Assembly (NCBI RefSeq): GCF_000737325.1
Contig: NZ_CP011125.1
Span: 558,001-622,000 of the forward strand
DNA: 64,000 nucleotides
Direction of reading: 5' to 3'
From: Sandaracinus amylolyticus
Lineage (GTDB): Bacteria; Myxococcota_A; Polyangia; Polyangiales; Sandaracinaceae
Each line of letters opens with the position of its first letter. The stretch's first letter is position 1. The notes below the pieces were generated by a model. That model saw only the letters and a program-made list of their open reading frames with translations, was not told where the DNA came from and made no database searches. The translations under genes were made by a program, and so were the position numbers. Shown piece after piece: positions 1,831 through 52,298 of this stretch.

Positions 1831-1839
1831 GGGGCGGCG

Positions 1840-7800: not shown

Positions 7801-9960
7801 GAGTGGGAGCCGGGTCATCGGCCCCAGAGCACGTACGTGATGCACGACGCGCTGTACCGCGTGATCGGCGCGTCGTTCAGCTACACCCAGGACAGCGGGA
7901 CTCGCACGACCGCGGACATCGCGACGGACTGGCGCGACGCGCAGGAGATCATCCGCGGCGACGAGGACGCCGAGAACCTTCGACCGAGCGCCGACCCGAT
8001 GCACGTCGAGCCCGCGCCGATGCTGCAGCAGCTCGAGCACCTGCCTGGACGCGTGCAGGACCTCTCGTGGCGCTGGGACTGGCTCGGCAACACGACGAGC
8101 TGGAACGACGACGCGGAGGTCTTCTACGAGCGCTCGATCGGCGCGATCACGAACGGCGTCGACCAGGGCGGCACGAGCCTGCGCCCGAGCGCGCTCTACG
8201 TCTCGAGCGACATCCCGACGCACGCGATGAGCACGACCGAGCAGCAGCGCGCGGGCTGGGTCGAGCTCGAGTACGGTGTCGGCGGCAACGTCACCTCGAT
8301 GACCGTGCACGGCCAGTGTCGCGACGCCGCCACGCAGACGTGCTCGGATCTGTCGACGACCGACCCGACCGCGCGCGCGAATCACCTGCGCACGCACTGT
8401 CGCTGCGAGAGCGAGCAGTACTACCAGTATCGCTGGGACGAGCTGAATCGCCTCGCCGAAGCGCGCCGCTGGGACCGCTTGGCGCCCGCGACGCAGTGGT
8501 CGCTGAAGGTGCGTCAGCGTTACCGCTACGACGGCGCGAACGTCCGCGTCATCAAGGCGACGATCGAGCCCACGAGCGAGACCGACGCCGGCCCACCAGG
8601 CGCGCTCGACGAGCGCATCGCGCTCTATGTCTTCCCAGGCGACTACGAAGTGCGCGGGCTCCGCCGCGACGCGAGCCAGTACGTCGCGCGCACCGGCCAG
8701 TACGACCACGTGGAGACGCAGTACGTCGTCGCCGGCGCCCGGATGGTCTGGAGGCACGCGGCTGACCCCGAACTGCTCGACGACGCGCGCAATCGACGGA
8801 TGACCGTCGCGCTCACCGACGTCATCCAGACCACCGCTGCGAGACTGGATCTGCTCAGCGGCGACCTCGTCGAGGCGAGTACGTATTACCCGAACGGGGC
8901 GCGGCAGACGCTCCTCATCGACGAAGAGGATCCGAGCGCGACCGAGCCCAACGGCTTCACCGGCAAGGAGGCCGACGAGGAAGTCGGGCTGACCTACTTC
9001 GGTGAGCGCTATTTGATCGGGCGGGCCGGGCGGTGGACATCCCCCGATCCTCTGCACGTCCACGACGCAGGTGGCGGTGAGAGCCTAAACGCGTACCACT
9101 ACGTCGCCGGGAACGTGTTCCAAGCTCGAGATCCCTTAGGACTCGACGCTGACGACCTCTGCGTTAGCGTCGGATTCATGTGCAATACCGGCGCGCCGCG
9201 GGCTGGCGACCTTACACGAAGCCGGGAGGCCTTCGAAGCCCGCCCGTACGTGCCTCAGGTTGGTGCGTCAGGCGTGACGATCGGCTACGGGTACGATGCC
9301 GGAGCGCGAACACCTGCTCAGGTTCGTCAGCAGTTCCAAGCGGCAGGGATCTCGCCCGAGCAAGCGAGCACATTCGCGACCGCGGCTGGCCTCCGGCGAG
9401 ACACGCCACGAGCGCAGGAGCGGCAAGCTCGAGATCGAGAACGGATGGGTCTGTCTCCGGTGGCGGACGGCAGTCCGCGCACCGCCGACGCCTGGCTTTC
9501 CGCACACCCGAACGGCGGGGGCGTTCAGATAACGCGGGAGCAAGCCGAAGCGCTCCTGCAAGCGGAGTTCGCGAGGAAGCACGAGATGGTGCGCCGAGTC
9601 ATGCTCGAAGGTGACACCGTGACCGACCGTCAGTACGATGCCCTCCCCCTGTCGATCAAGGAACTGCTGACAGATCTCTGCTACGTCGGACAGCCATTCT
9701 CGGCGAGAAGCGATGAGCTACGCGAGATGGTGCACGGGTGGTACAACCCCGAAGGCGCCGACGACCTCGCGACGGAGGCCGACATGCTGGACGACATGCG
9801 AGGGTTCATCCAGGCTCTCCCAGAAGACTTGCAGGGGCAGGGTGGTCGCACCGAACGGACGGCATTCATCGATGAACGGCTTCGCGAAATTCGCCCTGCT
9901 CAGCCCGACTCGGCAGACGCAAGCACCTCAGTGACGACCCAGCCGGCGGAGGCCCAGTGA
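1840..9960 (+). CDS. Sec-exported SpvB/TcdB-RHS polymorphic toxin with a pesticin-like muramidase tail
   Basis: This 2,706-residue protein starts with a Sec signal peptide (about residues 1-36, ending PVARA). A SpvB-type domain begins near 131 (SGTATFSVPIAVAPG). FG-GAP/VCBS repeats with DxDxDG loops lie near 526, 599, 746, 810 and 861, followed by the TcdB-type middle region (GLGAQTDIGYGSS, about 899). YD/RHS repeats run from about 1366 (YDGLGRL) to the RHS core. The core carries D2403-PLH and D2431-PLG, the places of the paired DPxG motifs at which related proteins are cut. The variable tail (2437-2706) contains E2463/E2466, then GVTIGYGYD with T2480 and D2486, and later ITREQAEALLQ. This resembles T4-lysozyme/pesticin muramidases, whose Glu, Thr and Asp are catalytic. 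Inferred role: a delivered cell-wall-cleaving toxin. The RHS call is firm; the tail assignment is moderately sure. Confidence 0.9.
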   Translation: MSAQNDRRATFAARALAASIATLLVWTPAAPVARADDGDGESPTTDGDPRVVEISDEARAQIEDAVRDGNPAIDAEHIPNLPEVADPTEAPGDGEAPTDDIAPLALPGGEARTAVTPQAISLPSAEGSVEGMGESFAPILSSGTATFSVPIAVAPGRRGVQPSLALSYSSTSGNGPVGFGWGLAAPFIARQSDRGLPRYVDDRQYHPQEDRFLYNGGQELVPVDSAAIAAVDQRAAQSGADASQVPDDVAGWQQYRARVEGAFMRFFRSPDSTRWVVQSRDGTRFDFGLLGSGEGPTDAVSASIRALEIDPESSEADPRVARWSLTRMSDAHGSTVYYGYRYDRGQSYLETIHYLAPHTCAGADVESTRECLEPLSAYGARVRLVYENREDVFSSFATGWKIETALRLRRVEITASSGVGRTLVRRYHLRYDPTSFHSLLSEVQVEGRPELANAELGVSKGRTDINESALDDRIQGRVLPPMRFGYSTMPARGEQIPGFGGVDATAHPVEHSPPHSVDEARADLFDVNSDGLPDLIVTDPARYRTREGEPAVGVFFNGFTGSSAAPAGATAHFSGAIPMPMDPRMSAVLSLSNPNVVPMDIDGDGRSDMLHMPRLRTYGWFTPTRGQDPASGAVVSPASQDWRWTYAQTELPADDFDPRVDLGRDAQHLEIVDVNNDHLIDIVRTTGTVMQTWVNLGWLPGGDGRFGSYRYVDDHWELSTQPIESCLLQSGTPVDFENAETRLADMNGDGLLDIVEIQRGRVRYWPGRGEGSWGEGPHECARGEGANRYIEMATPPAELNVELDGVSLTDVNADGATDVVQIRFDAVDVWFNRAGRAFTQRLIARGTPPTPSFVPRTRFADIDGSGTTDIVWGTANDWRYVDLAGGRRPRLLVRVENGLGAQTDIGYGSSAEDYVTDLAAAQRCTSCERFTWGRADGGHSARLEELAGTETWHSAGSPVISTVVRSVTTSDRLELLGREPHVSTTNFAYHDGYYEGIEQEFRGFGAADAQAVGDWNHPTSFTRTYFHQGRRPQSIADDRLADNPYEALKGREFLTETFDERGVYLSSAHATLTSRNLYQGLDGRWIQYAFVSEANELRYDTAVWAASAEELELTDVSFEAWGTTSWSQTSIVQRRARIRGQHFVRIKTTYDEVDSLGQVRRQTAHGAIDGAIPVDDVIVTHTTPVLRNPAEWIWRTGSTWITGTSDGVAQGPLRETINEYNDAGDVVLSRQVVGPLRAYTFGGDGSTEGPAIQQLQVNPSSTPGVSLDDDLVGSSLYDAWGNALASCVGADISELDPSTIAARPAGCLRYARVSYDADYAQLAETETTHVSTSGVTTLSTSGTWDRGLGAVLSATDPNGLVTSVTYDGLGRLVAVVPPRAEGCSDDRPTTRIAYELTGNAGAVPLSRVITTTELDCDAEYGEEGGSLVAISYIDGLGRARAGLSTGDAPGEWTRSGLSTLDAKGTVRRAYQPDVYVGSETSLAAVLALPRTVASPSGFPAFAEDDIPYTVTRHDAFGRTIGQHAEDGSYTSQSFHALSVDVCDALDNDSSSGFYGTCTTSRSDGHGRVTDQILRTYHADTGAPEQHRLWSYYRIDGVVTDLVRARSSAGVRPALTAVPSLADPHVHRVFHYDTLGRRIGTEDPDTDSRESGATAATRTWRYLFNRAGDLVAVRDPRGCGQNFFYDLGGRLLGEQYVSCSEAVSSRAEFGLYQLPIGSISMVEQTAIQRVDVRYWYDETPPTFITIPSRGGGMLGRMIGINDRGQRSLLAYDARGNAVWTARQVAVLPDAPALVAGPARTAPGDDRPSWTEAPIAANRVVTYATLRTYVRSARFDHAGRGTALVLPRDHTWTGTGLPPTIGGTLGFNRRGLPMHARVTIGCDPTTDANACQSHSGTRDVISEVQYARDGLVLGTTWGDTTTSTGATRAPSVSTTQYDVRRRPVRMITTRTPTGTEPRSLAAVSTVVDQQLVWDAASNLTEIIDHRDPTEWEPGHRPQSTYVMHDALYRVIGASFSYTQDSGTRTTADIATDWRDAQEIIRGDEDAENLRPSADPMHVEPAPMLQQLEHLPGRVQDLSWRWDWLGNTTSWNDDAEVFYERSIGAITNGVDQGGTSLRPSALYVSSDIPTHAMSTTEQQRAGWVELEYGVGGNVTSMTVHGQCRDAATQTCSDLSTTDPTARANHLRTHCRCESEQYYQYRWDELNRLAEARRWDRLAPATQWSLKVRQRYRYDGANVRVIKATIEPTSETDAGPPGALDERIALYVFPGDYEVRGLRRDASQYVARTGQYDHVETQYVVAGARMVWRHAADPELLDDARNRRMTVALTDVIQTTAARLDLLSGDLVEASTYYPNGARQTLLIDEEDPSATEPNGFTGKEADEEVGLTYFGERYLIGRAGRWTSPDPLHVHDAGGGESLNAYHYVAGNVFQARDPLGLDADDLCVSVGFMCNTGAPRAGDLTRSREAFEARPYVPQVGASGVTIGYGYDAGARTPAQVRQQFQAAGISPEQASTFATAAGLRRDTPRAQERQARDRERMGLSPVADGSPRTADAWLSAHPNGGGVQITREQAEALLQAEFARKHEMVRRVMLEGDTVTDRQYDALPLSIKELLTDLCYVGQPFSARSDELREMVHGWYNPEGADDLATEADMLDDMRGFIQALPEDLQGQGGRTERTAFIDERLREIRPAQPDSADASTSVTTQPAEAQ

Positions 9961-10802
9961 GTGGGCGCCACGCAAACGCTCGCGAAGGCGCGGCGCACAC
10001 GCCGAGCTTCCGTCGAGATGTCGTCGTACTGGGACTTCTCGTCGGGGTCGCGGTTGCCGGGTTTCCCGCGTGCGACACGTCGCGCTCACAAGCCCAAGGC
10101 ATTCCCGCGCGTGGCGAATCGGCGGAAGGTCCTGCGGCCTCGAGAGCGTCCTCATCGGAGGCACGGCGAATCGCCGCCGACGCTTGTGCGACGGAGTGCC
10201 CGCCCCGGTCACTCACTGCGCTCGGACGCTCGACGACGAGATTCCCCGTGACCGCTCGCATGCCCGAGATCTGCGAAGCTGTCGCGCGGATCTCGGACGG
10301 GACGGCGGATGAGCAGCCGCCGATGTGCGCCGTCGATCGTCTCGCCGATGGTTTCATCACGGTCGAGAGTCAAGAAGGAGACCTCGTCGAGCTCTTCGTC
10401 GGTATGGTTCAGCCGGCCGACCGAGTCGTGATCCTCGGTCGGCTCGACCTGTTCGTGCTGAATGCCCAAATGGACCACGTTGTCGAGGGTGTTCGAGTCG
10501 AAACTCGCGCGTTGGCCGGACGCGAGGTGATCAAGATCACCGCAACCGCTACCGACATGCCGGCGCGCGAGACGATCGACGAAATTTCCAGGCGGACAGA
10601 GCGAACGATGTTCTGCTCGCGGAGTCGTGCTGGCGCTGTCCCTAGCTGCCATTTCGCAATCACCACGAGCAATGCGGTGATCGGGGAGCCTGGTCGAAAT
10701 GACTTCGAGCTCGTCGATGACGTGAGTGCAAGCGGAGAACTGCGGCTGCGACTCGCTGGGAGTCCCCCCGACTGTGCTTGCTTCAGAGCCGCTCTCTGGT
10801 GA
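9957..10802 (+). CDS. Exported protein, candidate immunity partner of the RHS muramidase
   Basis: The GTG start overlaps the stop codon of the RHS gene (GTGA), so translation is probably coupled. The 281-residue product has a basic N-terminus, a hydrophobic segment (VVVLGLLVGVAVAGFPAC, about residues 22-39) and a Cys at its end, so it is a lipoprotein or a protein with a Sec signal; the lipobox (FPAC) is imperfect. The mature part is a single globular region with several Cys residues and no family that I recognise. A small gene placed directly behind a polymorphic toxin is normally its immunity gene. A periplasmic location would fit protection against a peptidoglycan hydrolase, as known for the pesticin immunity protein Pim. 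Function is inferred from position only. Confidence 0.7.
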   Translation: MSGRHANAREGAAHTPSFRRDVVVLGLLVGVAVAGFPACDTSRSQAQGIPARGESAEGPAASRASSSEARRIAADACATECPPRSLTALGRSTTRFPVTARMPEICEAVARISDGTADEQPPMCAVDRLADGFITVESQEGDLVELFVGMVQPADRVVILGRLDLFVLNAQMDHVVEGVRVETRALAGREVIKITATATDMPARETIDEISRRTERTMFCSRSRAGAVPSCHFAITTSNAVIGEPGRNDFELVDDVSASGELRLRLAGSPPDCACFRAALW

Positions 10803-11007
10803 GCCGGCGAGGGCTCTCGTGAGTTCGGAGCGCATACTGGCGCCCCGAGCCCGCCGCGGGCAGGCCGCACGCGTCCGCGCAACCCCGAGGTCCGGCACCG
10901 CGTCCCGTTCGTTCTGTGAACAGGCCGTTCGGTCACGCCCACGTGCAAGGTGGTCGTTACGCGCTTCTCTTCCGCGCGCCAGGCGCGATCGCTTACGCTT
11001 CGCCGAG

Positions 11008-41025: not shown

Positions 41026-41195
41026 TTTTTTTGAGGAGGGGGCCCCCGACGCTGCGCCGGTCGTGGCGGGTTGGCGGTGGGGTGCCGCGCTGGGCGGATC
41101 TCGGCGGGTGAGGTCGTGCCCCTCGAGCGCGTGGGGCCCCAGCCCCACGCGCGATCTCGGGACGGCGGCCTGGCCGATGCTCGGCTCGCGCGGAG

Positions 41196-41414
41196 CGCAT
41201 CGCTTCGCTCGCGCGGAGAGCGCATCGCTTCGCTCGCGCGGAGAGCGCATCGCTTCGCTCGCGCGGAGAGCGCATCGCTTCGCTCGCGCGGAGAGCGCAT
41301 CGTTTCGCTCGCGCGGAGAGCGCATCGCTTCGCTCGCGCGGAGAGCGCATCGCTTCGCTCGCGCGGAGCGCATCGCTTCGCTCGCGCGGAGCGCATCGCT
41401 TCGCTCGCGCCGCG
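41196..41414. repeat. Nine tandem 25/23-bp hairpin repeats
   Basis: Units CGCATCGCTTCGCTCGCGCG plus GAGAG repeat with a 25-base period at 41196, 41221, 41246, 41271, 41296 and 41321. The last ones (41346, 41369, 41392) have a 23-base period because one AG is lost. One unit has a C-to-T change (CGTTTC). Each unit can form GAGCG...CGCTC, so the transcript would be a chain of small hairpins. The surrounding 41033-41547 stretch has no gene. It is located between the SRP RNA and tRNA-Arg. Confidence 0.85.
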
Positions 41415-41547
41415 CGCATCCGCGAGCATCGCGGTCGCTCATCCGCGAGGCATCGCTTCGCTCCGCGCTGCGTCGCTCGCGCGACGTGTGCAGCGTTTCG
41501 GAGCCAAAAACAGTTCGGGGCTGAGCGATGACTCGCTCAGCCCCGAA

Positions 41548-41621
<74 letters not shown>

Positions 41622-41703
41622 TGAAGGGGCGCGAACTCTAGCGAGATGGACAGGTTTGTCAAACTCGCTCTTCGATTTTCTTTTCGAGCTCGCGCTCTTC
41701 GGA

Positions 41704-41791
41704 CGGAGAGGGCGGGATTCGAACCCGCGGTACCCTTTTGGAGTACTCTCGCTTAGCAAGCGAGTGCCTTAGGCCACTCGGCCACCTCTCC
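41704..41791 (-). tRNA. tRNA-Ser(GCT)
   Basis: A class II tRNA with acceptor GGAGAGG/CCTCTCC, anticodon loop TTGCTAA (GCT), a long variable arm (AGTACTCCAAAAGGGTACC) and T arm with GGTTCGAATCC. It reads AGC and AGU codons. Confidence 0.95.
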
Positions 41792-41888
41792 GGCGGCGGG
41801 TCTCCGCCGCTCCCGCGTTCGCGGGAATCGCGTTATTAGCCGCGCGGTGTGGTCGTGTCAAACGACGTGCGCGCTATGCTGCGCCGCG

Positions 41889-42464
41889 ATGATTCGACTC
41901 TCGATCGCGGCACTGATCGCCTCCGCGTGCGCGCTGCTCGGGGTGCCACGCGCGCATGCGTGCTCGTGCGTGGAGACGCCCTTCGAGCAGCTCGCCGCCG
42001 AAGCCGACGCGATCTTCGAAGGACGTGTGGCCTCGATCGAGCCCGCAGGAGAGATGCACGTGCGCGTGCGGCTCGACGTGGTGCAGACCTGGCGCGAGGC
42101 GAACGCGGAGCACGTCGAGGTCCGCACCGCGTCGCAGTCCGCGGCGTGTGGTGTCCACTTCGAGGTCGGGCGCTCGTACCTCGTGCTCGCCGAGCGAGCC
42201 GATGGCGAGTGGACCGCGTCCCTCTGTGGCGGCACCCGCGCGATGGAGGATGCCGACGACGAGCGTCTCTCACTCGGGTCCGGCGTGATCCCGGTCGACA
42301 TCGAGGACGAAGAGACCGCGTCCACGGAGCAGCATCCGCAGACGCTCCCGCCGCGCGGGGGCGGGTGCGCGGGGTGCGCGATCACCTCGCCCGCAGGCTC
42401 GCCGATCGCCCCGGCAATCGCGCTCGTGATCGCGATGTGGATGCGACGACGACGAATTCGTTGA
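41889..42464 (+). CDS. TIMP/NTR-like protein with a MYXO-CTERM tail
   Basis: The 191-residue protein has a signal peptide ending RAHA, after which the mature chain begins CSC (C25, C27), the hallmark start of tissue-inhibitor-of-metalloproteinase (NTR) domains. Further family features are DAIFEGRVASIE, VRLDVVQTWREA, CGVHFEVGRSYLVLA and SLCGGTRAMEDA. The C-terminus has a short Gly/Cys motif (GGGCAGC), a hydrophobic helix (PIAPAIALVIAMW) and an Arg cluster (MRRRRIR), which is the MYXO-CTERM sorting signal of myxobacteria. The protein should be exported and anchored at the cell surface after tail processing. Whether it inhibits a protease is unknown. Confidence 0.85.
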   Translation: MIRLSIAALIASACALLGVPRAHACSCVETPFEQLAAEADAIFEGRVASIEPAGEMHVRVRLDVVQTWREANAEHVEVRTASQSAACGVHFEVGRSYLVLAERADGEWTASLCGGTRAMEDADDERLSLGSGVIPVDIEDEETASTEQHPQTLPPRGGGCAGCAITSPAGSPIAPAIALVIAMWMRRRRIR

Positions 42465-42495
42465 CAGCATTCGACCTCGCGCTACAACCGCCGGC

Positions 42496-42582
42496 GGAGA
42501 GCTGGCCGAGTGGTCGAAGGCGCCTGATTCGAAATCAGGTGTGCCCGTGAGGGTACCGTGGGTTCGAATCCCACGCTCTCCG
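42496..42582 (+). tRNA. tRNA-Ser(CGA)
   Basis: Class II cloverleaf with acceptor GGAGAGC/GCTCTCC, anticodon stem CCTGA/TCAGG and loop TTCGAAA (anticodon CGA), a long variable arm and T arm GTGGGTTCGAATCCCAC. It reads UCG codons, which are frequent in this GC-rich genome. Confidence 0.95.
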
Positions 42583-42628
42583 CTGTGACGCCGCGCTGCA
42601 CGTGAGTCTGCGCGGGAGCGAGCTCCGG

Positions 42629-42665
42629 GCGCGGCCCTCTGTCGAGAGATGAGGGGCCGCGCTTT
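42629..42665 (+). terminator. Hairpin after tRNA-Ser(CGA)
   Basis: Arms GCGCGGCCCTC and GAGGGGCCGCGC pair with one bulged base and are followed by TTTGCG. It lies about 47 bases after the tRNA and is a good intrinsic terminator candidate. Confidence 0.55.
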
Positions 42666-42791
42666 GCGTATCTGGCGCTCTATGGATCCGGCGCGCGATG
42701 TTTCTGCGCCGGACGCCGGAGCTGGCGCGCGGTCTCCACGTGTGGTCGCGCGACGGCCTCGAGAGCTCGAGGTTCTTTGCATGCGATCCCG

Positions 42792-42878
42792 GGAGAGGTG
42801 ACCGAGTGGTCGAAGGTGCACGATTGGAAATCGTGTGTACTGGAGACAGTACCGCGGGTTCGAATCCCGCCCTCTCCG
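42792..42878 (+). tRNA. tRNA-Ser(GGA)
   Basis: Class II cloverleaf with acceptor GGAGAGG/CCTCTCC, anticodon stem CACGA/TCGTG and loop TTGGAAA (anticodon GGA), a long variable arm and T arm GCGGGTTCGAATCCCGC. It reads UCC and UCU codons. The tadA gene follows by 53 bases. Confidence 0.95.
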
Positions 42879-42931
42879 TTCTTCCGTTCCGCGCCTGATC
42901 GTCTCCGCCGACTGCGCTATCCCCGCTGCGG

Positions 42932-43501
42932 ATGACCGACTCCGGCGACGCGCTTCCGTGCTCCGACGTCGACGCCTCGTTCATGCGCGAGGCGATCGCC
43001 GAGGCGCGTCTCGCCGAGGCGAAGGGCGAGGTCCCGGTCGGCTGCGTGATCGTGCTCGAAGGCGCGATCGTCGGGCGCGGGCACAACCTGCGCGAGACGA
43101 TGCAGGACCCGACCGCGCACGCCGAGATGATCGCGCTGCGCCAGGCGGCATCGACGATCGGGAGCTGGCGCCTCGAGCACGCGATCGCGTACGTGACGCT
43201 CGAGCCGTGCCCGATGTGCGCCGGCGCGCTCGTGAACGCGCGCGTCGCGCGCGTGGTCTACGGCGCCGACGATCCGAAGGCGGGCGCGACCACGACGCTC
43301 TACACGATCGGCAGCGATCCCCGGCTCAACCACCGGTTCGTGCTCGTGCCGCAGGTGCTCGGCGGCGAGTGCGGCGCGCTCCTCACCGACTTCTTCGGCC
43401 GCATCCGCGCTGCGCGTCGTGCCGCGCGCGCGGGCATCACGCCTGACGTCCCGCCGCCGCCCGCGAAGCCTCGCCGCGATCAGGAGCCCGAGGGCGGGTA
43501 G
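42932..43501 (+). CDS. tadA: tRNA-specific adenosine deaminase
   Basis: TadA converts A34 of tRNA-Arg(ACG) to inosine, which is essential for decoding CGC and CGA. The zinc and catalytic residues are H63 and E65 (HAEMIAL) and C93, C96 (EPCPMCAGAL). A proline-rich tail of about 20 residues is extra. The 189-residue length is slightly long. The last 22 bases overlap the convergent kinase gene. The substrate tRNA-Arg(ACG) is encoded 1.3 kb away on the opposite strand. Confidence 0.93.
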   Translation: MTDSGDALPCSDVDASFMREAIAEARLAEAKGEVPVGCVIVLEGAIVGRGHNLRETMQDPTAHAEMIALRQAASTIGSWRLEHAIAYVTLEPCPMCAGALVNARVARVVYGADDPKAGATTTLYTIGSDPRLNHRFVLVPQVLGGECGALLTDFFGRIRAARRAARAGITPDVPPPPAKPRRDQEPEGG

Positions 43502-45249
43502 AGCACGCAGACCTTGTCGGCCTCGCACCCTTCGAGCGAGACCGATGTCGCGTGATCGCCGCTCTCGTCGAAGATCACGATCGCGTCCGGCGTGGGGAGA
43601 TCACGCCGCGTCCGCACTCGCACCACGCCGGGCACCGGGCCGAGCTCGTCGCCCTCGGGCAGATGCGCGGTGCCCTGTCCGTCGTAGCGCACGTAGACCA
43701 TCCAGTCGGGACGCTGCGAGGGCTCGAGGTCGACCGTGTGGACACGACCGACCGTGCGCGTGAGCTCGACCAATCGCTCCGCGCGGATCACCAGCGGCTG
43801 ATGACGCGGCGCGAGCGCGACGAGCGGCTCGCCGGTCAGCTGCTCGGGGGTGAGCCGCAGCGGCGGGGCGCCGAGCTCGCGCGGTCCGAGGAAGAGACGC
43901 ACACCGGCGGTGGGCGACTCGATGGTCACGCCTGCGCCGAGCGGCTGCAGCGGAGGCGCAGTGCTCGCGGGCTCGGGCGGCATCGACTGGCTCGCGTGGC
44001 GCACCACGAGCCACGCGACGCCGGCGATCGCGAGCAGCACGATCACCGCCGACGCGCCGACCATCGCGGACAACGCGAGCGCCGAGAGCGGCGCCTTCAC
44101 GCGCGCATGCGACGCGGAGCTCCCGCCGACGATCGGCAGCGATCCGCTCGGGGCTGGCGCCGCGGGCGAGATCGGAGGCGCGACCTCGATGGGCATCGCC
44201 GCGGCATCGGCCTCGGCGCGCGCGACCGCGAGCGCGACCGGCGTCGGCGGCACGAAGCTCGCGCGCTCGTCGGCGGAGGGCTGCGCGGGCGGGCGCTCGG
44301 GCTCGGGGAGCTCCCAGCCCTGCTCCGGGAAGAGCCACTGGAGGAAGCGCGCGAGCTGCTGTCGTCCGTAGCCCGCTGCGCGCTCGTGCAAGAGCTCGCG
44401 GAGATCCTGCGCGAGCTGCTGCGCCGACGGAGTGCGCGCCGCGGGGTCGATCGCGAGGCACTGCATCACGATCTTCTCGAGCCGCGGCGGGACCTCGGGG
44501 TTGAACCGCGAGGGCGGCGGGAAGTCGCCGCTGCGCAGCAGGTTCGCCGCGACCTGCGGATCGTCGGGCGGGATCAGCGATCGGATCGTGAGCATCTCCC
44601 AGATCGTCACGCCCAGCGCGAACACGTCGGCGCGCGCGTCGACGTCGATCCCCTGCGCCTGCTCGGGCGCCATGTAGCTCATCTTGCCGATCGTCACGCC
44701 GCTCTGCGTCTTGAGCACGTTGTCGGCGGCCTTCACGAGCCCGAAGTCGCTGACCTTCACCGTGCCTTCGTTGCTGAGCAGCACGTTCTGCGGGCTCACG
44801 TCGCGATGCACGATGCCGAGCGGCGTGCCGTCGTCGCCCTTCTTGCGGTGCGCGTGATCGAGCCCGCTCGCGGCCTCCGCGCCGATGTACGCGACCGCGG
44901 CGATGTCGAGCATCTCGTTGCGCTCCGCGAGGCGCTGCATCACCGCGCCGAGGGTCACACCCTCGACGAACTCGAGGACGAGATACGGCTCGGGATCGAT
45001 CCCGAAGTCGAGCACCTGCACGAGGTTCGGATGATCGAGCCGCGCGTTGGTGCGCGCCTCCGCGGCGAAGCGCTCGAGCAGCGACGGATCGCGCCGGTAC
45101 TGCGGCAGCATCCGCTTGATCGCGACCTTCTTCTTGAAGCCGGCGTCGCCCGTCCGCTCGGCGCGGTACACGACGGCCATGCCGCCCTGCCCCAATCGCT
45201 CGACGAGGCGATAGGGTCCGAGCCATTCGGGCGCGCCCGGCGCGTTCAC
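43480..45249 (-). CDS. Membrane Ser/Thr protein kinase
   Basis: The 589-residue protein has a complete kinase domain (about 12-290): GQGGMAVVY (20-28), K45 in VAIKRM, HRDVSPQNVLL, SDFGLVKA and SYMAPEQ. HRDVSPQN in place of HRDLKPEN is common in myxobacterial kinases. After a Pro/Ala-rich linker there is one membrane helix (ALSAMVGASAVIVLLAIAGVAWLVV) and a C-terminal extracytoplasmic domain with PEGA-like strands (GVTIESPTAGVRLFLGPRELG) and two Cys near the end. I chose the GTG at 45249; a GTG at 45300 would add 17 residues. A TACAAT -10-like box lies 61 bases upstream of the chosen start. Confidence 0.88.
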   Translation of the reverse strand: MNAPGAPEWLGPYRLVERLGQGGMAVVYRAERTGDAGFKKKVAIKRMLPQYRRDPSLLERFAAEARTNARLDHPNLVQVLDFGIDPEPYLVLEFVEGVTLGAVMQRLAERNEMLDIAAVAYIGAEAASGLDHAHRKKGDDGTPLGIVHRDVSPQNVLLSNEGTVKVSDFGLVKAADNVLKTQSGVTIGKMSYMAPEQAQGIDVDARADVFALGVTIWEMLTIRSLIPPDDPQVAANLLRSGDFPPPSRFNPEVPPRLEKIVMQCLAIDPAARTPSAQQLAQDLRELLHERAAGYGRQQLARFLQWLFPEQGWELPEPERPPAQPSADERASFVPPTPVALAVARAEADAAAMPIEVAPPISPAAPAPSGSLPIVGGSSASHARVKAPLSALALSAMVGASAVIVLLAIAGVAWLVVRHASQSMPPEPASTAPPLQPLGAGVTIESPTAGVRLFLGPRELGAPPLRLTPEQLTGEPLVALAPRHQPLVIRAERLVELTRTVGRVHTVDLEPSQRPDWMVYVRYDGQGTAHLPEGDELGPVPGVVRVRTRRDLPTPDAIVIFDESGDHATSVSLEGCEADKVCVLYPPSGS

Positions 45250-45342
45250 GGGGCGAACATACCTTCCGGTGGTCGGGAATTCATCGCTCTCGAGCGTCAC
45301 CCGGCGCGCATTGTAGCGGGCCGCGCGCGTAGGCTGGCCTCG

Positions 45343-46254
45343 ATGACGCGATCGCGTCCGACGCTGGACATCTCGCTCCCGACCGAGCCCTTCGCGGCAC
45401 AGCACACCCCGCGGCGAGACGTGCGGACGCTGTGTCGCTGGCTCGAGGGCGCGCTGCCCGGCGGATCGGCGGGGATCGCGACGCTCCTCGAGCGTCTCCA
45501 CGGACCGCTCGCCGAGCGTCGACACCTCGTCGCAGTCGCGCTCGTCGTGGCGCACCTCCGCGGTGAGCTGCGTGGCGCGCGATGGCTGCGCCTCACCGGG
45601 ACCGAGAACGCCGATCCCCGCGACATCGATCGCGAGATGGACCTCGTCTGGGATGCGCTGGCCCGGGCGAAGCTGGTGCGCGGCGCGCTGCGCTATCACC
45701 CCGGCACGACGCAGCACGGCATGGCGCGTTTTCCTCCGCGGCTCGTGCCGCGCTGGGTGCGCACGAACCGCTGGTCGCTCTTGGGCCAGGACGACGACCT
45801 GCTCCTCTTCGAGCCCGACTACATGGAGCCGCTGCTGCGCGGTGCCGCCGAGCCGGGTGCGGCGCGGCGCGATCTCGCGCGCGGGATCGTCGCGCACGCG
45901 GCGCGTGATGCGGCGCATGCGGTCGTGGCCGCGCCGCGGTACGCGGGCGGCGAGACGCTCGCGACGTTCGCGCCGCGCTACGCGCGCTGGGCGAAGATCG
46001 CGCGCGAGACCGACGCGCTCGAGGTCGCCGCGTACCTCGAGCGGCTCGCGTCGTACGGCGCACCGCGCACGTTCGACGCGGAGCAGGCGCTCCAAGCGTT
46101 CCGCGATCTGTCGCGTTGTTGGCCAGCGGAGCCGAAGGTCGTGCGCATGCGCGAGGTGAAGGACGGCTTCACCGGGAGCGTGCCGGGCACGTCTCGTCGC
46201 CCGTCACGCGTGCACATCGATCGCGAGACCGGCGCGATCACGCGCGTGCGCTGA
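45343..46254 (+). CDS. Hypothetical protein, 303 aa
   Basis: The ATG at 45343 begins a soluble, Arg-rich protein without signal peptide or membrane helix. It has a mixed helix-strand pattern and an even charge distribution, with notable segments WLRLTGTENADPRDIDREMD, RWSLLGQDDDLLLFEPDYME and SRVHIDRETGAITRV at the end. I recognise no family or catalytic motif. It is divergent from the kinase gene (93 bases between starts) and convergent with the GHKL-ATPase gene (17 bases between stops). Confidence 0.7.
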   Translation: MTRSRPTLDISLPTEPFAAQHTPRRDVRTLCRWLEGALPGGSAGIATLLERLHGPLAERRHLVAVALVVAHLRGELRGARWLRLTGTENADPRDIDREMDLVWDALARAKLVRGALRYHPGTTQHGMARFPPRLVPRWVRTNRWSLLGQDDDLLLFEPDYMEPLLRGAAEPGAARRDLARGIVAHAARDAAHAVVAAPRYAGGETLATFAPRYARWAKIARETDALEVAAYLERLASYGAPRTFDAEQALQAFRDLSRCWPAEPKVVRMREVKDGFTGSVPGTSRRPSRVHIDRETGAITRVR

Positions 46255-46271
46255 TCCGCGTCCTCGACGCG

Positions 46272-47705
46272 TCAGCGCTCGGGGTCGCCGCGCCTGAGCG
46301 CCGTCGCGAGGGCGGGCCCGCCGTCCGCGAGGAGCTTCGCGAGCATGCCTGCGAGCAGCTGCAATCGATCGATGAAGCGATGGTCGTGCTCGACCGACGC
46401 GAGGTGCGCGAGCTCGTGGAGCACCACGCCGATCGTGCCGGGATCGAGCACGTCGTCGAAGCGCAGCGGGCCCTTCACGTTGAACGAGATCGCGCGCGCG
46501 TCGACGTCGGTCACCGCGTCCTCGAGCAAACCCGCGTCGCTCGGATCCCGCGCGAAGAAGCGCACCCGCACCACGCTCCCCGCGACGCGTCGCGCGAGCC
46601 AGCGCACCGCCTCCGCGAAGCGCCGCTGGGTCTCGTCGGGCTCGACCTCGTCGCCGCCGAACTCGCTCGATCGACGCCGCACGTAGTCGTCGCTCGTCTC
46701 GAGCACGCGCGCGAGCGCGAGCCACGCCCCGTGGGAGATCGTGCGCGCATCGACGATGTGCGCGCCGAGCTGCTTCGCGCGATCGTTCGCGCGCGAGGTG
46801 CCGCCGAGCACGCTGCCGCGCGGGAACACCTTGCTCACGTACGCGTCGAGCAAGCCCGACTTCACGGGCCACCGCGCGATCACGTCCTGCACCCAGTCGG
46901 CGCGCAGATCGCGGCGATCGAGGTAGCTGTGCACCATCGCCTCGAGCAGCGTCGCCTTGAGCGCGAGCACGAAGCGCTCGGGGGCCGCGTCGCGTCCTTC
47001 TCCGAGCGGCACGCGCTGCGCGACGTCGACGTGCCACGGCACGTTCCACGGCTGCACCGGGACGCCCATCTCGAACAGGCTCGGCCGCTCTCCGCGCCTC
47101 GGCGCGTAGATCGCGACCCGCGTGGGACGCATCGCGGCGCGCTCCACGCCATCGTCGATCACGACCGTCTCGAGCTCGCAGTCCGCGAGCGCGAGCACGC
47201 TGCGCGGCCTCCGCACCAGACGGCCCGCGACGCGCAGGCTCGTGCCGCGCGGCGGGATCGCGAGGCGCAGCAGATCGAGCGCCGCCTCGCGCTCGTCGTC
47301 GCCGATCGCGCGGAAGAGCTCGAGCCGCGTGCCGCTCTCTCGCGTGTTGGTCTCGGTGCGACGTCCCTCGCCGTCGAAGACGATCGTCGTGCCGATCGTC
47401 TCGACGTGCGCGCGCTCCGCCGCGGCGAGCAGCTCCTTGAGGCCGCGCCCCATGCGCCCGCGACGGGTCGGGTCCCGCGGTTTGTCGGAGAGGAACAGCG
47501 TGTAGACGAGGCGCTCGTCGGCGATCCCCGCGCGCGCGTCGTCCTCGATCACCACGCGGTCGGGCTCGATCTCGATCGCGACGTTCGCGGCGTCCGCGTC
47601 GAACGCGTTCTGCACCGCCTCGAGCAAGAGACGCCCCAGCGGGCGCGCCGCGCTCAGCCGCGCCCATCCCTCCTCGGCGATCTCGAACCACGCACTGCGC
47701 GCCAT
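46272..47705 (-). CDS. GHKL-type ATPase domain joined to an HExxH domain
   Basis: The first 100 residues carry Bergerat-fold (Hsp90/MutL/histidine-kinase) ATP-binding motifs: E29 and N33 in LLLEAVQNAFDA, IEDDARAG (54-60) and GRMGRGLKE (83-91). No histidine phosphoacceptor domain is present. A middle region of about 320 residues is unassigned. Near the C-terminus HELAHLASVEH gives H430, E431, H434 and H440, the spacing of the metzincin HExxHxxGxxH zinc site with Ser in place of Gly. The combination suggests an ATP-gated metalloprotease or a chaperone-like enzyme, both inferred. I chose the ATG at 47705 because the ATPase fold starts directly after it; a longer frame to 47825 is Arg-rich and unlikely. 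Confidence 0.8.
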   Translation of the reverse strand: MARSAWFEIAEEGWARLSAARPLGRLLLEAVQNAFDADAANVAIEIEPDRVVIEDDARAGIADERLVYTLFLSDKPRDPTRRGRMGRGLKELLAAAERAHVETIGTTIVFDGEGRRTETNTRESGTRLELFRAIGDDEREAALDLLRLAIPPRGTSLRVAGRLVRRPRSVLALADCELETVVIDDGVERAAMRPTRVAIYAPRRGERPSLFEMGVPVQPWNVPWHVDVAQRVPLGEGRDAAPERFVLALKATLLEAMVHSYLDRRDLRADWVQDVIARWPVKSGLLDAYVSKVFPRGSVLGGTSRANDRAKQLGAHIVDARTISHGAWLALARVLETSDDYVRRRSSEFGGDEVEPDETQRRFAEAVRWLARRVAGSVVRVRFFARDPSDAGLLEDAVTDVDARAISFNVKGPLRFDDVLDPGTIGVVLHELAHLASVEHDHRFIDRLQLLAGMLAKLLADGGPALATALRRGDPER

Positions 47706-47988
47706 GAGGCCCCTCGGATGCTGGCGTGCGTGGGCTCGCTTGGGAAGAGCACCCCCCGCTTGACGTGTGCGTCGAACGCGCCGATGCTCCGCGACCATCT
47801 CGTGACCCGCGGGTGCGTTGCGCAAGCGCGACGCGGCCGGGCGACGAGGTGCTCAAGCCCGGGGCTCGCGGCCCCAATCCGGTGGGACGTCGCGCACGAC
47901 GTCGCACCAATCTTTCGTGATCACCAATGGACCTCGTTGATCGTGGGGTCCGAAGCCGGCACCATCAGTCAGCTGGAGGTTCTCGCGC

Positions 47989-50850
47989 ATGGGGAACGTA
48001 GGCCCCAACGGGGGTGGCAGTGGGGGTAGCAGCCTACAGCGACCCAGTGCCCCAGGCGGTCGCTCCGGCGATCGCGTGATTCCCTTCGGCAAGTACCTCT
48101 TGCTCGATCGGATCGCCGTCGGCGGCATGGCCGAGGTCTACACGGCGAAGTCGTTCGGCATCGAGGGCTTCGAGAAGATCATCGCGATCAAGCGGATTCT
48201 CCCGACGATGGCGGAGGATGAGGACTTCATCCAGATGTTCATCGACGAGGCGAAGATCGCGGGGCACCTGACGCACGCGAACATCGTCCCGATCTACGAG
48301 CTCGGGAAGATCGGCGAGTCGCACTACATCGCGATGGAGTACGTCTGGGGCAAGGATCTGCTCCAGATCATGAACCGCTTCCGCCGCATGCGGAGGCACA
48401 TGCCGCCGGTGATGGCGGCGTGGATCGCGAGCAAGATGTGCGAAGGCCTCGACTTCGCGCATCGCAAGAGGGACCGCCACGGGCGGCCGCTCAACATCAT
48501 CCATCGCGACGTGTCGCCGCAGAACTGCCTGGTCTCGTACGAGGGCCAGGTGAAGATGATCGACTTCGGCATCGCGAAGGCGGCCGCGCGCAACACGAAG
48601 ACGCAGGCCGGCGTGCTGAAGGGCAAGTTCGGCTACATGAGCCCGGAGCAGGTGAAGGGCTCGGGGGTCGACCACCGCAGCGACGTGTTCGCGGTCGGCA
48701 CGTGCCTTCACGAGATGCTCACGGGCGAGCGCCTCTTCGTGGGCGAGAGCGACTTCTCGACGCTCGAGAAGGTGCGCAACGCGGACGTGATCCCGCCGTC
48801 TCAGACGGTGCCGGACATGCCCGCGGAGCTCGAGCAGATCCTGCTGAAGGCGCTCGCGCGCGAGCCCGAGGAGCGCTGGCAGAGCGCGGGCGAGATGCAC
48901 GAGGCGCTGCAGATGTTCGTGGCGCGCGAGAAGCCGCCGTTCGGCACGAGCAAGCTCGCGGCGTGGATGCGCACGGCGTTCGCGCCCGAGATGACGAAGG
49001 AGAAGGGGCGCCTCGACGGGTTCGCGAAGATCGCGAAGCCCGCGAGCGTGCCGCCGCCGCCGCCGAACCGCGCGAGCGCGCCGGGCGCGGCGAAGGATGC
49101 GATGGCGAGCACGTCGCCGGACAACCCGGCGGTGCGTCGTCCGCCTGCGCCGCCGCCGCCTGCGCGGCCGCTGCCGCCGCCGGTCGCGGTGGGCGCGCCC
49201 GTCGTGCCGCCGCCGATGAACGACGTCGACGAGGACGACGATCCGGGCGAGCTGCAGTCGGAGTCGACGATGATCTCGTCGTCGCCGTTCGACGAGATGA
49301 CCGACGGCGGCGGCGAGGAGCTGCAGGGCGCGCCGACGCAGATCTTCTTCAGCGCCGACGAGCTCGAGGAGGCGCCGAAGCCGGCGCCGCAGATGGGCGC
49401 GCCGGCGGGCGTCGTGGTGTCGCCCTCGGTCCACGTGCACCAGCCGGCAGGGATGCCGATGCCCGCGCCGGCGATGCCGGCGCCGATGCAGCGCGCGCCG
49501 AGCCTGCCTCCGGAGGAGCGGCCGACGACCGCGCCTCTGATGGACTACGGCGCGCCGCCGATGGCGCAGGGCGGTCAGCCGGCCACGGTGGTGCACGCGT
49601 CGCCGTACGGCGCGCCGCCGCCGATGGCGATGGGCGCGCCGCCGATGCCGATGGGGCAGCCGATGCCGACGGGGCATCCTATGCCGATGGGGCAGCCCAT
49701 GCCGATGGGGCAGCCGATGCCGATGGCGCAGGCGCAGCCGATGCCGATGCCGCAGACCGGGCCGACGCCTGGCTTCGCGGCGCCGCCGGCGTTCGGCGCA
49801 CCCCCGCCGGCGTTCGCGCAGCCGGGGGCGGAGGCGCTCGACCCGGGGATGCGCCCGCGCTCGGCCGCGCAGGAGACGCTCGAGCTGCGATCCCCGGTGA
49901 TCGCACCGAAGCGGAGCCGCGTCGCCTTGTTCGTGGGGCTCGGGGCGTTCGTGTTCGTGGCGCTCGCGGCGTCGCTCGCGGCGTTCCTGGTGTTCGGCAC
50001 CGGGCCCGCGGGAGGGACCATCGAGATCCGGACGAACCCGGCGGACGCCGGCGCGACGGTGCTCGTCGATGGCACGCCGCGCGGTCGCGCGCCGCTGCGG
50101 CTCGATCACGTCCCGTCGGGCGACCACCTGATCGAGGTGCGCGCCGACGGGTTCCAGCCGGCGACGCAGACGGTGCCGGTGAGCGACGGGACGACGGCGA
50201 TGCTGCTCATCCCGCTGATGCCGGGTGGCGCGCCGGCGATCGCGGCCGTGGCGCCGCCGCCGGTCGCGCCCGCGGTGGTGCCGCCGCCGGTCGCCGCGCC
50301 GACGCCTCCGCCCGTCGCGCCGACGCCCCCGCCGACCGAGGTCGCGGTCGCGCCGACGCCTCCTCCGCCGGCCGCACCGACGCCTCCGCCGCCCGCGGTC
50401 GTGGCGCCGCCGCCCACGCCGGTCGCGACTGCACCGACGACCACGCCGCGTGAGGCCGCGACGACGACCACGCCGCGTCAGGCGACGACGTCGTCGAGCA
50501 GCGGACGGACCGAAACGGCGAGCTCGAGCGCGCGACCGGTCGCGACCGCGTCGTCGATCACGCCGCGCTCGCGCTCGGGCGAGGAGACGTCGCGCTCGTC
50601 GAGCTCGAGCTCGTCCTCGAGCGAGCGCCGCAGCTCGTCGCGCGAGCGCGGGTACCTGATGATCCAGACCCTGCCCTGGGCGCGCGTGTTCATCGACGGG
50701 CGCGACACCGGGCAGAACACGCCGGTGCGACGCATGGAGGTGCCGGCGGGATCGCACCGAATCGGGCTGCGCACGAACGACGGGCGCATGCACGAGGTGA
50801 CGGTCGAGGTGCCCGCGGGCGAGACGGTGCGCATCGTGCGCCAGCTCTGA
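47989..50850 (+). CDS. Ser/Thr protein kinase with PEGA domains
   Basis: The 953-residue protein has a complete kinase domain (35-305): VGGMAEVY, K68 in IAIKRI, H172-R173-D174 in HRDVSPQN, MIDFGIAK and FGYMSPEQ. A long Pro/Met/Ala-rich linker contains repeats of MPMGQP type (about 545-590). One membrane helix begins near 645. Outside lie two PEGA domains (about 680-745 and 885-952) separated by a Pro/Thr/Ser-rich stretch of more than 100 residues, which looks like a wall-spanning spacer. PEGA domains are taken to bind surface polymers. The stop codon is part of the target duplication of the IS that follows, so the gene end is intact. Confidence 0.92.
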   Translation: MGNVGPNGGGSGGSSLQRPSAPGGRSGDRVIPFGKYLLLDRIAVGGMAEVYTAKSFGIEGFEKIIAIKRILPTMAEDEDFIQMFIDEAKIAGHLTHANIVPIYELGKIGESHYIAMEYVWGKDLLQIMNRFRRMRRHMPPVMAAWIASKMCEGLDFAHRKRDRHGRPLNIIHRDVSPQNCLVSYEGQVKMIDFGIAKAAARNTKTQAGVLKGKFGYMSPEQVKGSGVDHRSDVFAVGTCLHEMLTGERLFVGESDFSTLEKVRNADVIPPSQTVPDMPAELEQILLKALAREPEERWQSAGEMHEALQMFVAREKPPFGTSKLAAWMRTAFAPEMTKEKGRLDGFAKIAKPASVPPPPPNRASAPGAAKDAMASTSPDNPAVRRPPAPPPPARPLPPPVAVGAPVVPPPMNDVDEDDDPGELQSESTMISSSPFDEMTDGGGEELQGAPTQIFFSADELEEAPKPAPQMGAPAGVVVSPSVHVHQPAGMPMPAPAMPAPMQRAPSLPPEERPTTAPLMDYGAPPMAQGGQPATVVHASPYGAPPPMAMGAPPMPMGQPMPTGHPMPMGQPMPMGQPMPMAQAQPMPMPQTGPTPGFAAPPAFGAPPPAFAQPGAEALDPGMRPRSAAQETLELRSPVIAPKRSRVALFVGLGAFVFVALAASLAAFLVFGTGPAGGTIEIRTNPADAGATVLVDGTPRGRAPLRLDHVPSGDHLIEVRADGFQPATQTVPVSDGTTAMLLIPLMPGGAPAIAAVAPPPVAPAVVPPPVAAPTPPPVAPTPPPTEVAVAPTPPPPAAPTPPPPAVVAPPPTPVATAPTTTPREAATTTTPRQATTSSSSGRTETASSSARPVATASSITPRSRSGEETSRSSSSSSSSSERRSSSRERGYLMIQTLPWARVFIDGRDTGQNTPVRRMEVPAGSHRIGLRTNDGRMHEVTVEVPAGETVRIVRQL

Positions 50851-50866
50851 CTCGCCTTTCGCGCTT
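50851..50866 (+). repeat. Left terminal inverted repeat of the IS
   Basis: CTCGCCTTTCGCGCTT, the exact reverse complement of the right end at 52255-52270. Confidence 0.9.
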
Positions 50867-50938
50867 TTAATCGTCGGCGAGATCGAGTAGCCACGTGGCC
50901 CGAGTTCTTGGTTGTTGCAGCAACCGAGGGAGGGCCAC

Positions 50939-52255
50939 GTGGCCGAAAGCAGGCTTCGCACACTTGCCGAGGTTCTGGAAGTCGTCCGTCCAGCGTTCAC
51001 GCGTCCGACGTTCGAGCGCTTCGTTGCGCTCATGCGCGGGTGGCTGCTCACCCAGCAAGCGGGCGCGGTGACCAGCGCTCTGCTCGGCGCCGGTCTCGCG
51101 GGCAGGGCGCATCACGCTGCGTTCCATCGCTTGTTCGCGGAAGCCGCTTGGGACGTCGACGAGGTCGGCACCGAGCTGCTGAAGTGGATCGTGCGGACGT
51201 GCGCGACGCGCAGATCGCTGCAGCTCGCGATCGACGACACCGTCGTTCGGAAGAAGGGCCCGATGGTGTTCGGCCTCGGCACGTATCTCGACCCGGTGCG
51301 GTCGAGTCGACGCGTGCGGAACTTCGTGTTCGGTCACCTCTGGGTCGTGCTCGTCGCGATCGTGGAAGTTCCGTTCTCGAAGCGGCGCTGGGCCGTCCCG
51401 ATCTTCTTCCGGCTCTACCGCCAGGAGCGCGACTGCACGCGCACCAACGATCCCTACGCGAAGCGCACTTCTCTCGCGCGCGAGCTGATAGATCTCGCTG
51501 CGCGCGTCGCGCCAGAACTCACCATGCACGTCTCTGCGGATGCCGCGTACTGCTGCGAGACCGTGCTTCGCGGTCTGCCGAAGAACGTCGTGGTGTACGG
51601 CACGTTGCGAGACAACGCAGTGTTGACCGCCGCCCCGATTGCGCGTCGCGGTTGCACCGGTCGTCCGCGCGTTCGCGGAGAGCGGATGCCGACGCCTGCG
51701 CAGCTCGCGGCTGATCCGTCGCGGTGGCGGTCCACACGCGCGGCGCTCTACGGACGCACTCGAGCGCTCGCGTTCAAGCAGATGGATGCGCAGTGGTACC
51801 AGGGCCGTGGTCCCGAGCTGATGCGCGTGGTCGTCGTGCGCCTGAGCGCCGGTAAGCTCAAGCACCGCGTCTACTTCTGCACCGATCCGACTCGGACTCC
51901 CGCCGACATCGTCGAGCGGTACACCGCTCGATGGCAGATCGAGGTCTGCTTCCGCGACCTGAAGCAGCACCTCGGATTCGGCGCGTCGCCGGCATGGTCG
52001 CGGCGAGCAGTCGAGCGTGTGACGCCCTTCGCTGGCTTCGTCTACTCGATCGTCGTGATGTGGGCACGACTGTCGCTGCGACGGCCCGAACGCGCTCCAC
52101 AGATCCGACGACCGTGGTACCGCGACAAGGTCGGCTTGAGCTTCGCCGACCTGCTTCACATCGCGCGGACGGACCTTTTGGATCCAGCCGCGCGCACGCA
52201 GCTCGCGAGAAACTCGCCGGTGAGCGACCGGTCGCGCTCGTTTGCAGCTGCATGA
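50939..52255 (+). CDS. IS transposase, DDE superfamily
   Basis: The 438-residue protein cuts and joins the IS ends. Candidate catalytic acids are the Asp pair in AIDDTVVRK, the Asp in VSADAAYC, and the Glu in QIEVCFRDLKQHLGFG, which forms the YREK-like Glu block of IS4/IS701-type enzymes. The GTG at 50939 is preceded by GAGGGAGGGCCAC, a good ribosome-binding site. The stop codon falls in the right inverted repeat. The gene is intact with no frameshift, so the element may be active. Confidence 0.88.
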   Translation: MAESRLRTLAEVLEVVRPAFTRPTFERFVALMRGWLLTQQAGAVTSALLGAGLAGRAHHAAFHRLFAEAAWDVDEVGTELLKWIVRTCATRRSLQLAIDDTVVRKKGPMVFGLGTYLDPVRSSRRVRNFVFGHLWVVLVAIVEVPFSKRRWAVPIFFRLYRQERDCTRTNDPYAKRTSLARELIDLAARVAPELTMHVSADAAYCCETVLRGLPKNVVVYGTLRDNAVLTAAPIARRGCTGRPRVRGERMPTPAQLAADPSRWRSTRAALYGRTRALAFKQMDAQWYQGRGPELMRVVVVRLSAGKLKHRVYFCTDPTRTPADIVERYTARWQIEVCFRDLKQHLGFGASPAWSRRAVERVTPFAGFVYSIVVMWARLSLRRPERAPQIRRPWYRDKVGLSFADLLHIARTDLLDPAARTQLARNSPVSDRSRSFAAA

Positions 52256-52270
52256 AGCGCGAAAGGCGAG
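52255..52270 (-). repeat. Right terminal inverted repeat of the IS
   Basis: AAGCGCGAAAGGCGAG, the exact reverse complement of the left end at 50851-50866, followed by the TCTGA target repeat. Confidence 0.9.
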
Positions 52271-52298
52271 TCTGAGCGGGGGACGGTGAGCCTGCAGC

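Follow-up and report, generated by a model that had tools for sequence, protein, structure and literature searches.

The window analysed here is a stretch of 64,000 nucleotides from the 10.33-Mb chromosome of Sandaracinus amylolyticus (contig NZ_CP011125.1, positions 558,001 to 622,000 of the forward strand). On its minus strand lies a single gene, the product of which joins an N-terminal GHKL ATPase to a C-terminal zinc domain. We regard this fusion architecture as near certain. The divergent neighbour is a Ser/Thr kinase gene (47989–50850) and the convergent neighbour is a plus-strand gene which ends at 46254. Plus-strand frames across the gene were rejected as antisense shadows, being conserved less than the minus-strand frame. 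The gene and its features are located as follows.

46272..47705, minus strand: whole gene, 477 amino acids plus stop in one reading frame; the start methionine is shared by homologues.
47226..47705, minus strand: GHKL (Bergerat) ATPase domain, residues 1-160 (Pfam HATPase_c_3, 4.4e-6; sacsin-type GHKL domain model, 4.1e-7; structure match over residues 1-270).
47598..47621, minus strand: N box E29-A-V-Q-N33-A-F-D36, residues 29-36 (E29, N33 and D36 in 111/111 members).
47433..47459, minus strand: ATP-lid motif GRMGRGLKE, residues 83-91 (G83 and G88 in 111/111, K90 in 109/111).
46896..47225, minus strand: transducer (S5-like) domain, residues 161-270, as in GyrB, MutL, MORC2 and the Hsp90 middle domain (VIA-align and Foldseek).
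46992..47018, minus strand: Q-[KR]-x-P-L-x-x-x-R loop, residues 230-238 (R238 in 111/111, Q230 in 110/111).
46641..46895, minus strand: helical linker, residues 271-355 (structure model).
46293..46640, minus strand: zincin domain (WLM/minigluzincin-like), residues 356-471 (C-domain profile against PDB; Pfam WLM and YgjP below cut-off).
46386..46418, minus strand: predicted zinc site and catalytic Glu, H430-E431-L-A-H434-LASVE-H440, residues 430-440 (all four kept in 110/111; Wss1 spacing).

Copies with 65–72% identity are present in six named myxobacterial genomes, and a class-wide search recovered a full-length relative in 16 genomes; of the 10 Sandaracinaceae genomes sampled, 8 are among them. 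Both ends are also retained by two chromosomal relatives as distant as 24–25% identity. The chromosomal Polyangia proteins form one clade (support 100/100). Most relatives are located on uncultured, often huge, phage contigs; the others were found on megaplasmids, cyanobacterial plasmids (the plasmid-borne relatives occur in Methylibium, Rhodovastum, Bosea and Picosynechococcus) and Polyangia chromosomes, in searches which under-sampled the bacterial range. A first profile search of viral contigs, filtered by N-box and transducer patterns, gave 27 loci. The second gave 155 matches, 80 of which were kept, and was filtered by the transducer pattern alone, so that the set of 80 was chosen without regard to N box or HExxH. 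21 of these 80 contigs are larger than 100 kb and 11 larger than 200 kb. When 50,697 phage records were searched, a relative was also present in one uncultured phage of 485 kb. Genes near the family member on phage contigs include those for tail sheath, DNA polymerase, helicase, a RecT-like protein and clamp loader. The presence of tail sheath, DNA polymerase, helicase and clamp loader genes therefore identifies many of the viral contigs as phage genomes.

For the analysis of conservation, 111 distinct full-length members were used, most of which share only 22–31% identity with the window protein. The ATPase residues E29, N33, D36, G60, G83 and G88 as well as R238 are present in every member. 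The four residues of the zinc site, H430, E431, H434 and H440, occur together in 110 members, and E431 on its own in all 111. When the C-terminal domains of 44 diverse sequences, L151 not among them, were aligned by themselves, these four were the sole invariant columns. The exact spacing HExxHx5H is found in 102 of the 110, while a small gap or insertion displaces the third His in the remaining eight. An earlier note on this DNA, made from the letters of the window, had named conservation of the metal ligands and the ATP motifs in one and the same set as support for a joint function, and both are kept jointly in 110 of 111 members, with slight variation at D55/D56 and K90. This counts in favour of an ATP-controlled peptidase as proposed below. 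The opposite case, a homologue which keeps the ATPase without HExxH, was sought as well and occurs once: in L151 (5394-6875) the ATPase is intact and the zinc site is lost. In L113 the zinc site is intact. Judged from these alignments, the pairing of ATPase and zinc domain is real, ancient and conserved. Between the window gene and a copy from the same genus (L031), nonsynonymous divergence (dN) is 0.015 and synonymous divergence (dS) 0.196, low throughout the gene, ATPase and zincin ends included, and third codon positions hold 63 of the 80 nucleotide differences. The gene is under purifying selection at both ends.

The residues E29 and N33 and the motifs IEDDARAG (53-60) and GRMGRGLKE (83-91), taken by the earlier note as marks of a GHKL ATPase, are located where it had placed them. 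The N box has the form ExxxNxxD (E29, N33, D36). In the G1 box DxGxG, D56 and G60 align and the position of the first Gly is taken by R58. D56 itself is D in 98 members, N in 11 and E in 2, and D55 is also slightly variable. An ATP lid of the GxxGxG type is present, its middle Gly being replaced by N in most phage members. After the transducer strands follows the motif Q-[K/R]-x-P-L-x-x-x-R238. At a comparable place, DL[PS]LNVSRE occurs in nine myxobacterial HtpG proteins, and the spacing from P to R equals that of the R238 loop. In Hsp90 the Arg of the PLNxSR loop contacts ATP. From its sequence, the R238 loop may be functionally equivalent to this catalytic-arginine loop. A profile–profile alignment with HtpG covers the GHKL domain only (E 1.5e-5), and the R238 loop lies outside the aligned part.

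A structure model was built from alignment A4 with 79 diverse rows, from which L151 and L113 were left out. Its mean predicted local distance difference test score (pLDDT) is 94.4 and its predicted template modelling score (pTM) 0.77. An earlier model from seven close relatives had been discarded for its poor C-terminus (pLDDT 59). In the model, residues 1–270 resemble the ATPase-plus-transducer part of ParE, GyrB, MORC2, topoisomerase VI, MutL and TRAP1 (Z about 16; 240–260 residues aligned; root-mean-square deviation (rmsd) 3.5–5.5). With VIA-align, ParE was matched at Z 16.5 (rmsd 4.4, 246 aligned) and MORC2 at Z 16.4 (rmsd 3.9, 255 aligned); the top rank in Foldseek is TRAP1/Hsp90 (E 3.1e-12). 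Residues 1-270 are thus, by motifs and model, a GHKL ATPase with transducer, for which binding and hydrolysis of ATP are predicted. The suggestion of an Hsp90/MutL-like machine, also made before, is borne out by these structure matches for this part of the protein. GHKL-transducer modules are found in gyrase B, MutL, MORC and Hsp90, where they dimerise on ATP and close like a clamp.

The ATPase part takes up the lists of structure matches, and the C-terminal domain was assigned as a zincin from profiles and from the layout of the model. This layout consists of a helix (358–374), strands, a helix (422–434), a loop and a long helix (442–471). H430 and H434 are placed on the helix 422-434 and H440 in the loop directly after it, as in zincins. 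When a profile of the C-terminal domain was compared with PDB, every match with E <0.1 was a zincin, among them myroilysin (0.0006), proabylysin (0.0013) and Wss1 (0.0065). A PDB search with the window protein as single sequence gave no match. Pfam WLM (PF08325) reaches 19.9 bits with the whole protein and 21.7 bits with the C-terminal domain alone, below the curated cut-off of 26, and the Pfam YgjP match of this domain is weak and also below cut-off. In yeast Wss1 the zinc ligands are H115, H119 and H125, with E116 as catalytic Glu (PMC5557861). The spacing of H430, E431, H434 and H440 is the same. The earlier assignment of a metzincin-spaced site holds for the four residues and their positions and fails for the class: just 11 of 110 members have Gly at +7 (102 have His at +10), and a conserved Met-turn is missing. 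No conserved Met was found in the columns examined after the third His, where Met occupies position 454 in 5 of 111 members and the long helix 442-471 follows. The profiles suggest that the domain is closer to the WLM/minigluzincin zincins.

The question arises whether the zinc domain is catalytic. As an alternative, the protein could be a chaperone or clamp in which the ATPase does the work and a structural or degenerate zincin fold merely binds a client or zinc. We consider this very unlikely. L151 would fit such a protein, and so would the related GHKL-only proteins of Myxococcota, but the catalytic Glu varies no more than the ligands do. Since E431 is invariant without being a ligand, catalysis is favoured over a structural zinc. 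The GHKL-only proteins are matched by the profile of the window family over the ATPase region alone (about residues 22-155). Because this match excludes transducer and linker, they are superfamily cousins, as opposed to family members from which the zincin has disappeared.

Hsp90-like GHKL proteins without a zincin, about 540-600 amino acids long, were observed at L040-L052 and are abundant in many Myxococcota genomes. They carry a conserved TRDN[VI] or SRDN[VI] loop (FRELVQN[AS]IDA...RDNVxRD). A further group of GHKL-like proteins, of the phrog_8203/phrog_6077 type, is encoded beside family members at L103, L100, L106 (+2 gene) and L140 (-1 gene). In these a lid-like motif, GQFGSGNKHA, stands ahead of an N-box-like REFVSNAID, an order which possibly reflects a circularly permuted GHKL domain. 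Their terminal motif, LEExxHxxTxAxDNSRDFQD, looks like a degenerate zincin site, and they perhaps form a second GHKL-zincin-like phage family. A search with phrog_6077 in Myxococcota gave GHKL-domain matches only.

On balance, the protein is probably an ATP-gated zinc endopeptidase, a reading towards which we lean slightly and in which zinc binding, proteolysis, gating, dimerisation and substrate are all deduced from sequence and model. The ATP-controlled protease of the earlier note thus stays the best inference, its activity being predicted. Binding of ATP would shut a dimer of the N-terminal GHKL domains around a protein substrate, or around a protein on nucleic acid, while the invariant R238 loop may sense the bound nucleotide. 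Closure of the clamp would pass the substrate via the helical linker to the zinc site, where it could be cleaved, with zinc held by H430, H434 and H440 and E431 acting as general base. Hydrolysis of ATP would then reopen the clamp. Inspection of the window protein by eye shows neither a membrane segment nor, in agreement with the earlier note, a signal peptide, and a cytoplasmic location is predicted. Four points weigh against an ATP-gated peptidase. The GHKL G1 box departs from the usual DxGxG form in that its first Gly is not conserved, L151 shows that the ATPase can at least occasionally persist without the zinc site, the WLM matches of the window protein stay under the curated threshold, and there is no conserved partner gene from which a substrate could be guessed. 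Neither in the phage-contig neighbourhoods, where no neighbour recurs widely, nor in those of Polyangia was such a partner found. Because its neighbours are not conserved, the protein probably works alone.

A special case of such an endopeptidase would be a protease which shuts its GHKL-transducer clamp on DNA and removes DNA-bound or crosslinked proteins, as a counterpart of Wss1/Spartan in phages or bacteria. It would agree with the structure matches to DNA-handling GHKL proteins (MORC2 with DNA, ParE, GyrB, MutL), with the coverage of the whole domain of Wss1, a DNA-protein-crosslink protease, by the C-domain profile, and with the DNA-metabolism genes (DNA polymerase, helicase, RecT-like, clamp loader) among some phage neighbours. 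However, the first place of Hsp90-type proteins in Foldseek argues for protein clients as much as for DNA, no DNA-binding motif was identified, and the neighbours are not conserved. This special case is possible, though we regard it as doubtful.

The mobile and patchy distribution on phages and plasmids could also point to a conflict effector, that is, a protease which cuts a particular regulator of host or invader and becomes active when its ATPase senses a signal. The order of genes on three Picosynechococcus plasmids (L080, L084, L203), where a DisA_N diadenylate-cyclase gene precedes the family member and a CHAT-domain gene follows it, would be in line with this. In the chromosomal clade of Polyangia, however, the gene has no conserved neighbours and its presence in 8/10 Sandaracinaceae genomes is more like that of a housekeeping gene; matches in PADLOC are weak and concern the GHKL part only. 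A role in conflict therefore seems quite unlikely for the family. On the Picosynechococcus plasmids, DUF1822 and sigma-70 genes are located on the opposite strand, and this locus is a possible signalling or conflict locus.

A stretch of 10.9 kb which includes the gene occurs twice with 99.95% identity, at 41399-52275 of the window and at bases 1-10877 of the genome contig. Of the two, the second begins at contig base 1, within a 25-bp tandem array (41184-41410), and its end coincides exactly with an insertion-sequence copy (50846-52275). The doubled stretch is either an assembly-end artefact or a recent duplication. Beside the tandem array and within the doubled stretch lie four tRNA genes (Arg, Ser, Ser, Ser; 41548-42878).

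If ATP does gate cleavage by the endopeptidase proposed here, this would be a new way of coupling ATP to proteolysis. The same residues at both ends persist at 22–31% identity, and a testable function would be given to a gene which is present on more than 100 uncultured phage contigs and nameless in the family libraries searched. For the whole protein no family was found in Pfam, PHROGs or NCBIfam, where only the generic GHKL part and sub-threshold WLM and YgjP matches appear. The earlier note knew of no enzyme with this pairing, and likewise no prior description of a GHKL–zincin fusion was found in open-access papers, to which the search was confined (subscription papers and preprints were outside it).

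Among known systems, Hsp90/TRAP1 (HtpG) shares the GHKL ATPase, the middle-domain-like transducer and the spacing of the PLNxxR loop, and gives the best Foldseek matches. Unlike Hsp90, the window protein has a zincin in place of the C-terminal dimerisation domain and no match to Pfam HSP90 (PF00183); an ordinary HtpG is encoded elsewhere in the same genome. MutL also combines a GHKL-transducer ATPase with a C-terminal effector domain (PDB profile match E 1e-4 to 5e-5), but its C-terminus is an endonuclease and dimerisation domain instead of a zincin, and no MutL Pfam match was obtained. Wss1, of the WLM family, has the HExxHx5H spacing and is matched across its entire protease domain, whereas it has no GHKL ATPase and the window protein is below the Pfam cut-off for WLM. 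Proabylysin (a minigluzincin) and YgjP-like metallopeptidases have a similar small zincin scaffold of cytoplasmic type but stand alone, without ATPase.

Phage rIIA-type proteins have an N-terminal GHKL ATPase with a variable C-terminus, and no zincin is described for rIIA in the paper that comes nearest to the fusion, one on jumbo phages in which zincin peptidases are mentioned as proteins separate from the rIIA GHKL proteins (PMC7824862). The likeness to rIIA is the N-terminal GHKL domain, with limited structural matches in BFVD (template modelling score about 0.35); no sequence match to any rIIA PHROG was found, and 28 members compared with PHROGs gave only weak matches to two unnamed families. 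AAA+ proteases such as FtsH, Lon and Clp are P-loop ring motors which thread their substrate, FtsH with an HExxH zinc site. To our knowledge, all known energy-dependent proteases use AAA+ rings. The window protein would share with them energy-dependent proteolysis in the cytoplasm, as predicted, and differ by its GHKL clamp. We hold it about even that its family represents a class of ATP-dependent proteases with a GHKL dimer clamp as motor instead of an AAA+ ring, distributed over huge phages, megaplasmids and some bacterial chromosomes. Both domains are of known kinds, and their fusion parallels the layout of MutL with a GHKL clamp and a C-terminal effector.
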